Shown in pieces: positions 38,052 to 39,412 of a DNA stretch of 64,000 bases. How positions within the stretch are numbered: position 1 is the stretch's first letter; each line of letters opens with the position of its first letter. Source of the DNA: Candidatus Gastranaerophilales bacterium (GTDB taxonomy: Bacteria > Cyanobacteriota > Vampirovibrionia > Gastranaerophilales > Gastranaerophilaceae). The notes under the pieces are model-generated. The model was given only the letters and a program-made list of their open reading frames with translations, did no database searches and was not told where the DNA came from. The stretch is taken from contig CALUWC010000012.1 of the NCBI GenBank assembly GCA_944324395.1, positions 1 to 64,000 of the forward strand, read 5' to 3'. The position numbers and the translations under genes are program-made.

Positions 38052-38405
38052 CTATAAAAACATAGGGTTAGAATCATCGTTATCATTTAAATTCTCTCCT
38101 TGTGAATCTTTCACATCATCATCATACCATTGTGCAACGGTATGGTTACCAACAGAGCGGATTTCTCCATCAGCAAAATAATTAACAACTTTTCCTCCGA
38201 TTGAATGTATTTGACCGTCAGAACTGTATTGAACCTCCTGCCCTCCTATCGAAGATATATTTCCGTCAGGAGTATATGCTACCAGTTTATTATCAACAGA
38301 AAATACTTGTCCATCTTCCCAGCAATGTAATTCAGGTTCTGTGATACCCGGAGCTATCGGATTGGAACTATAAGAACATATCAATGCTAATTTCTTTTTA
38401 TCCAT
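38052..38405 (-). CDS. Small repeat protein with DG-x-I-x-S-I-G-G motifs
   Basis: I place the start at the ATG at 38405 (MDKKKLALICSYSS), though the frame is open to 38456. Residues about 40-105 consist of four imperfect 18-residue units with the core YTPDGNISSIGGQEVQY, YSSDGQIHSIGGKVVNY, YFADGEIRSVGNHTV, resembling beta-hairpin repeats of the WEDG/YD type. The tail is acidic. No signal peptide in the short form. It lies directly downstream of the prepilin gene on the same strand and may be its partner, but no function is known. Confidence 0.65.
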   Translation of the reverse strand: MDKKKLALICSYSSNPIAPGITEPELHCWEDGQVFSVDNKLVAYTPDGNISSIGGQEVQYSSDGQIHSIGGKVVNYFADGEIRSVGNHTVAQWYDDDVKDSQGENLNDNDDSNPMFL

Positions 38406-38473
38406 ACTCTTAATATCCTCGCAACAATATAACGAATATGAATTTAAAAAGTTCATTTTTTATAAATAAATTT

Positions 38474-39178
38474 TTATTTCACATGAAGATCCCACTTCCA
38501 AGGGTAATCATCAGGAATTTTCCAGCTGTTTAGCTGTATCAATTTTGTACAATAACCGCAGTTTGTACAACCTACTTTACAAGCCCAGGTATTGCCATCT
38601 TTTAATTGTTCTCGTTTTCCGTTCCAGTTATATATATACGGTTCAATATAACTTGCACTGTTTACACCTCTATTACTGTCACTTTTATATTTTGCAAATT
38701 GAAACTGAAAATAATTTCTGGGCCCGCCATGACTTTCGTCCCCATCTACATAATATCCTATATCTGCACCATTATTATCTACAGCAAAACAAAACAGACT
38801 CCCATCTAATAATGTTATACAAATTCCCTCATACCCACTGCCAAAAGACTTTCCTTGTCGTAAATCCACATATTTCATATAAGGAAGAAAATACTGATGC
38901 ATAAATTCTTCTAATTCTTTATACGAATAATATTTATTTGGCTGAACCCAGCCGTCCACATCTCCGTTATCTATCATTGATAATCTAACAGCATTATTTA
39001 TTATCGATACAAAACCCTTCAATCTGGTTTCAACACGCTGTTTTTGATACTTAGTTATCAAATTTGGTATGGTTATTGCAGAGATAACCCCAATTATGCC
39101 AATTGTTATTAAAACTTCCGCCAGAGTATATGCTTTGCCTTTATGTTTCAAACAAAAGGCTGTATAGCCGCTAAACAA
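38474..39178 (-). CDS. Type IV prepilin-like protein, frame separated from its start by a G10 tract
   Basis: The frame contains a prepilin cleavage/N-methylation region, GKAYTLAEVLITIGIIG, followed by a hydrophobic helix and a globular domain of about 190 residues with a C-terminal cysteine cluster (WACKVGCTNCGYCTK). In this frame the only upstream start is TTG at 39178 with no ribosome site, and a stop lies at 39209-39211. A good start, ATG at 39234 after AAGGAAAG, is separated by ten G (39195-39204 as C on the plus strand). With 8 or 11 G the two would join, giving a leader of about 37 residues. It is therefore phase-off, broken, or misread at the homopolymer. Confidence 0.8.
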   Translation of the reverse strand: MFSGYTAFCLKHKGKAYTLAEVLITIGIIGVISAITIPNLITKYQKQRVETRLKGFVSIINNAVRLSMIDNGDVDGWVQPNKYYSYKELEEFMHQYFLPYMKYVDLRQGKSFGSGYEGICITLLDGSLFCFAVDNNGADIGYYVDGDESHGGPRNYFQFQFAKYKSDSNRGVNSASYIEPYIYNWNGKREQLKDGNTWACKVGCTNCGYCTKLIQLNSWKIPDDYPWKWDLHVK

Positions 39179-39183
39179 GAACT

Positions 39184-39234
39184 TTAAGAGGCTACCCCCC
39201 CCCCGAATTTATTGATATTATTGAATTTTAACAT
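39184..39234 (-). other. Probable true prepilin start and leader, out of frame in this copy
   Basis: ATG at 39234 with AAGGAAAG seven bases upstream encodes MLKFNNINKFGGGVAS and stops at 39184. Removing two or adding one G in the tract joins it to the prepilin frame. Confidence 0.65.
39195..39204 (-). repeat. Ten-base homopolymeric G tract (C on the plus strand), candidate phase-variation site
   Basis: The tract stands out in AT-rich DNA, where no other G or C run of this length was noticed. Its position between start codon and body of a surface-structure gene is that of a contingency locus. Confidence 0.75.
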
Positions 39235-39412
39235 GCACACTTTCCTTATTACTTGATAGTATTTAATATATAATATTTTTAACCTCTTTGCAAGAAAAAG
39301 GGAAGGATTTATAATTGATGCAGTTCGTTTTAGGTGCATTGGCTCACATTTACCCCACTTGTAAAAAAATTTTGTGTGTACGATAATATTGATGTTACTA
39401 GAAGGATATGAC

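Follow-up and report, generated by a model that had tools for sequence, protein, structure and literature searches.

Why should a prepilin gene lie in a different reading frame from its own start codon? The question is raised by a locus on the minus strand of the window, the whole 64,000-nucleotide stretch of Gastranaerophilales DNA analysed here, which an earlier note had read as an interrupted prepilin gene and a candidate phase-variable pilin.

A prepilin gene and its G tract

The locus begins with the Shine-Dalgarno-like site AAGGAAAG (39240-39247, minus strand), followed by five bases, an ATG (39234-39232), nine codons, a tract of ten G (39195-39204), TAGCCTCTTAAAG, the prepilin body and a TAA at 38474. 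The start and its ribosome site are thus where the earlier note had them, except that they are five bases apart and not seven; the sequence before the ATG is purine-rich (A/G) across the whole set of leaders described below. Counting bears out that exactly ten G separate the ATG from a body in another frame. With ten G, the ATG frame reads MLKFNNINKFGGGVAS*, a leader ORF of 16 codons and a stop (39184-39234, minus strand), and the sequence TAGCCTCTTAA (39184-39194, minus strand), which holds a TAG and the TAA of TCTTAA, stops both off frames straight 3' of the tract. With 8 or 11 G, the proposed ON lengths, the frame can be read through into GSLLKFLFSGYTAFCLKHKGKAYTLAEVLITIGIIG, as had been claimed, and the joined product is MLKFNNINKF-G(n)-SLLKFLFSGYTAFCLKHKGKAYTLAEVLITIGIIG. 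The body frame itself has no stop between a TTG at 39178 and the TAA at 38474, and the TAA reported 31 bases upstream of this TTG is indeed there. The tract is the sole G or C homopolymer of at least 7 in the window (33.4% GC), and just six runs of at least 8 G occur across the 1.89 Mb of the genome, so the rarity of long G tracts holds as well. Since GGG makes up 10% of the local Gly codons, three consecutive GGG codons have a probability of 0.001, and ten G are far beyond chance. Directly downstream of the pilin lies a 134-aa ORF (38052-38456) with weak MORN/beta-flower similarity.

The body (234 aa from the TTG; 38474-39178, minus strand) has the processing motif KGKAYTLAEVLITIGIIG followed by a hydrophobic helix, as type IV prepilins do. 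It matches DUF6613 in a profile search and the N-methylation profile TIGR02532 above its cut-off (17.5 versus 16.3 bits), and falls slightly below that of Pfam N_methyl (18.8 versus 21.2); a profile built from it reaches PilA, PpdD and GspG chains. The predicted structure, of modest confidence (mean pLDDT 63.6), combines a long N-terminal helix (19-71) with a beta-sheet, and a Foldseek search of the PDB with this model gave no significant match. Type IV pilus genes are stated to be present in the Gastranaerophilales/Melainabacteria literature (PMC5877343), and the window genome (G000) encodes PilB/PilT-type ATPases. No prepilin peptidase (PF01478) was found above threshold in G000. Other families of the order match PF01478 clearly, but most species of this genus do so below the cut-off, and these sub-threshold matches suggest that the genus has a divergent peptidase.

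Three of the six G runs in G000 occupy the same place in prepilin genes: the window G10, a G10 at C5:22280 and a G9 at C1:198920. All three pilins have an ON length of 8 or 11, and all are OFF. The C5:22280 body is 64% identical to that of the window pilin, the value also obtained for the paralogue L002 (leader MLKFNNINIF, dN/dS 0.29); L002 and L010 (leader MLKHNYSVSF) share the leader of the window gene. A fourth run, G11 at C6:12321 (ON at 10), lies upstream of a protein that has a signal peptide and 500 or more residues. Many other G000 pilins begin directly with a short ATG leader and have no tract. At G000:C1:7306 (L021:1501), a solo G10-TAACCCTTGATAGCC leader remnant without a body follows another gene beside an apparent tRNA gene, which suggests that the module is movable or was left behind by recombination. 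A contig scan for a second strain of the window species found none, the single relative being at 48%.

A shared leader module in the genus

The anatomy given in the earlier note therefore stands, but not for a single gene, since the leader module occurs genus-wide. Of the 46 genomes of the genus, 41 have runs of at least nine G followed by another base, with 1 to 56 in each (56 in G007, 43 in G014 and 34 in G001). Reading the tract loci of G000, G001, G007, G009, G014, G023, G030, G059, G068 and a few other genomes revealed a recurring unit: a purine-rich ribosome site, an ATG, a leader of 9-10 codons, a pure tract of G8-G12, a tail and FTLAEVLITLGIIG. The leaders are of the types MLKFNNIKKI, MLKFNHSLKN, MKNLTKLEK and MKKQTTVRI, and the tail between the tract and FTLAEVLITLGIIG is, for example, TAACCTTTTAAGG, CACCGTTAAAGC or TAACTGCTTAAAG. 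Outside the genus the module is rare, though it does occur in the same family, where it sits on signal-peptide proteins and one pilin. Scans of IMG/VR for the module turned up no pilin leader, and a Pfam search of the non-pilin tract genes gave no match. Codon-position diversity in the leader was uninformative, the leader set being paralogous and short.

The comparison species G008 has many pilins and almost no tracts; about half of its pilin genes have an ATG shortly upstream of the prepilin motif, and the others have a long leader. In seven prepilin genes of G008 (L258, L260, L261, L265, L270, L271 and L274), as in L170 and L171 of G014 and L222 and L228 of G001, the leader between the ATG and FTLAEV appears to have been lengthened by in-frame intergenic repeats, of the types HCEE..., PSP..GRG and VILNLFQ. 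A second G9 element, GGGGGGGGGTAAATGTTGTTAC and its variants, occurs at L149, L181 and L249-L254 (G008, G030, G034 and G066), in no case 5' of a prepilin. At first look, prepilin candidates number 92-215 per genome in G001, G007, G008, G014, G021, G023 and G027 and, for the most part, 7-35 in the other species, hence a pilin expansion in these seven species.

Frame, length and rival explanations

To assign a frame to each tract, we paired the best ATG that has a ribosome site with the longest downstream frame and scored whether the two join; depending on leader phase, the ON lengths are 8 or 11, or 9 or 10. Among 166 leader-tract genes in 11 genomes, 16 are in frame, 69 have one base too many and 81 one too few, and in the subset with a clear prepilin motif only 7 of 130 are ON and 123 are OFF. 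Relatives are thus nearly all out of frame, the opposite of the fixed in-frame length that, according to the earlier note, would have made the ten an assembly error. Because leader phase and tail vary among genes, length and frame can be separated. When tract lengths were shuffled within genomes, the 130 pilins gave a mean of 24.9 ON genes and a minimum of 12 in 20000 shuffles, against the 7 observed; without G007, 14.1 were expected and 6 observed (P = 0.00005), loci being partly dependent through duplication of already-OFF genes, an effect that shuffling within genomes lessens and does not remove. That shuffled lengths give far more ON genes argues that the off frame itself is kept, and not merely a length. 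Each genome has its preferred length (11 in G007, 9 in G068, 8 in G023). In G007, genes with ON length 10 read 11 in 28 of 33 cases, whereas genes with ON length 11 read 10, 12 or, once, 8, and never 11, the commonest length of that genome. The in-frame state is avoided. The 28 G8 tracts of G023 lie on the plus strand in all but one case, across ten contigs, which hints at a strand preference.

Tract length varies. Among 26 pairs with bodies at least 68% identical, 17 have tracts of unequal length (for example, L069 with G11 and L206 with G9), and ON copies coexist with OFF ones in G001 (three tracts of G10 against a background of G9) and in G023 (G9 against a background of G8). A scaffold gap falls inside the tract of L130 in G007, and contigs start 2-47 bases from tracts in G001, G014, G028 and G030. 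G001 has four such starts, 2-46 bases from a tract; given its 34 tracts and 110 contigs, chance would give about 0.1, although repeats of the shared leader could also cause these breaks. Contig ends at phase-variable poly-G genes have been reported previously (PMC10327513). The length variation, the scaffold gap and the contig ends fit length heterogeneity and fall short of proof of switching in a clone. Several features that one would look for in slipped-strand switching are present in the sequence, namely a repeat between the ATG and the body, conserved flanks around a varying length, and both ON and OFF states; tract length would thereby alter pilin expression. Missing mismatch repair was considered as the reason for tract instability and is ruled out, since a search found MutS.

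Could these genes be made without crossing the tract? Translation might start downstream of it (at TTG 39178 in the window gene) or reinitiate there, with the leader irrelevant or serving as a regulatory upstream ORF. The TTG is there, and leader ORFs do end right after the tract; however, the body frame of 91 of the 123 OFF pilins lacks any ATG, GTG or TTG from the preceding stop up to the prepilin site, an ATG with a ribosome site is available there in just 2 of the 123, and sequence of the LKL/LLRL type recurs in the body frame between the tract and the prepilin site. We regard a downstream start as very improbable. Off frames of the pilin relatives are closed within 15 nt past the tract in 74% and within 40 nt in 99%, compared with 43% and 71% in body interiors. 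Still harder to believe is that the genes are decaying pseudogenes with a frozen frameshift, as their being out of frame might suggest, because the indel is restricted to the tract in about 150 genes and the bodies are no relics: 12 pairs, the majority OFF in both members, give dN/dS values of 0.10-0.30, and 118 of 125 bodies whose stop lies in the fetched DNA reach at least 180 aa.

Nor do errors of assembly or base calling, with a true tract that is in frame, offer more than a slim chance of explaining the pattern, marginally better than that of a downstream start. Homopolymers are error-prone, and G068, which has long contigs, reads G9 throughout with ON at 10; yet such an error must amount to +1 in G007 but to -1 in G068, G001 and G023, must track the frame so that 11 is avoided in G007 exactly where it would be ON, and must recur in eleven separate assemblies. 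A more serious rival, which we nevertheless consider unlikely, places the slip in RNA. Here the DNA would be stably out of frame, RNA polymerase (or the ribosome) would slip on the G tract, and a full-length minority would act as a throttle that keeps every pilin low. Such slippage would suit an OFF state that is nearly universal and in which the frame class, not the length, is conserved, as well as selection on bodies that persists while they are OFF. Transcriptional slippage is established in bacteria for A/T runs (PMC1088944), and the uniform modal lengths per genome, together with MutS, keep this rival alive. Against it, ON copies exist, orthologues differ in tract length, and both +1 and -1 offsets are seen inside single genomes as well as among orthologues, a mixture that no directional ribosomal frameshift can accommodate. 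The RNA folded at the window tract is not unusual in structure (z = 0.37) and has no stimulatory element there. With both offsets present and no such structure at the window site, programmed ribosomal frameshifting does not describe this locus.

Phase variation by slipped-strand replication, acting on a large repertoire of pilins that are mostly OFF, is the best explanation and in our judgement probably the correct one, as far as genome sequence can tell. A 5' leader with a G8-G12 tract is common to a large family of type IV prepilin genes, together with a small number of signal-peptide surface proteins, and slipped-strand errors in replication would add one base to the tract or take one away. 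This single base would toggle translation between a dead peptide of about 16 residues (OFF) and the full prepilin (ON), and slippage in DNA would make the two states heritable. With most copies OFF in each cell lineage, few pilins would be made at once and the repertoire would be sampled stochastically. Replication slippage as the cause, reversibility, and a benefit through varying adhesion, phage receptor or immune exposure are what we infer from this pattern. Two points count against phase variation: preferred lengths per genome are more uniform than fast neutral slippage predicts, and slippage rates should be lower with MutS present. The comparison is between assemblies, one genome per species, and assemblers may homogenise tracts that lie between near-identical leaders. 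We rank phase variation at the DNA level above slippage in RNA, and both may coexist. The candidate raised in the earlier note thus gains support, at the level of sequence, from 130 prepilin genes with varying tract lengths, some ON copies, closed off frames and selected bodies.

More broadly, and with our confidence evenly divided, we propose that the genomes of this gut genus each carry tens of type IV pilins downstream of a common G-tract leader, whose majority genotype is actively kept out of frame by one base; rare +1/-1 events (DNA slippage, RNA slippage or both), and not promoters, would then set pilus identity. Such a whole-repertoire design, default-off by one base, would not have been described before. 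If this is true, up to about 50 G-tract-led pilin genes make pilus identity stochastic and heritable in Cyanobacteria-related gut commensals, for which genetics is almost lacking, and would also account for the pilins that gene callers overlook or give a wrong start. Avoidance of the in-frame length is unusually uniform and allows a clean distinction between slippage in DNA and in RNA.

Comparison with known switching systems

Most of the large phase-variable sets known so far come from pathogens, and the pilus-associated gene pilC of Neisseria carries a poly-G tract. The open literature searched on pilins or phase variation in Gastranaerophilales/Melainabacteria holds no account of phase variation, in line with the earlier claim that it is undescribed in this lineage. 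Contingency loci with poly-G tracts, switches based on 5' homopolymers and pilins that vary are all on record (PMC10327513, PMC2831843, PMC11868660). The poly-G loci of Neisseria and the Campylobacter phasome likewise place a G tract in the 5' coding region of surface-structure genes, switch frame by one base and produce contig ends within tracts (PMC10327513; PMC8355987). Unlike in Neisseria and Campylobacter, the pilins themselves would be switched here, tens per genome with one common leader module and nearly all OFF, in gut bacteria of a non-photosynthetic group related to Cyanobacteria that have MutS.

Each member of the opa family of Neisseria is switched independently by a pentamer repeat in its 5' coding region. 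Opa resembles the present case in being a multigene surface family, of about 11 genes (PMC3745409), but here the repeat is a G homopolymer, the genes number up to about 50 per genome and they encode prepilins rather than opacity adhesins. Listeria inlA also has a 5' homopolymer frameshift, with a leader peptide truncated to 8 aa and high-frequency restoration (PMC2831843), although it is a single gene with a poly(A) tract and no paralogous leader module, whereas the G-tract module here recurs in many paralogues. Finally, in pilE/pilS of Neisseria a type IV pilin also varies stochastically, silent copies donating sequence to a single expressed locus by gene conversion; in the present family, by contrast, each copy has its own start and would have its own switch.
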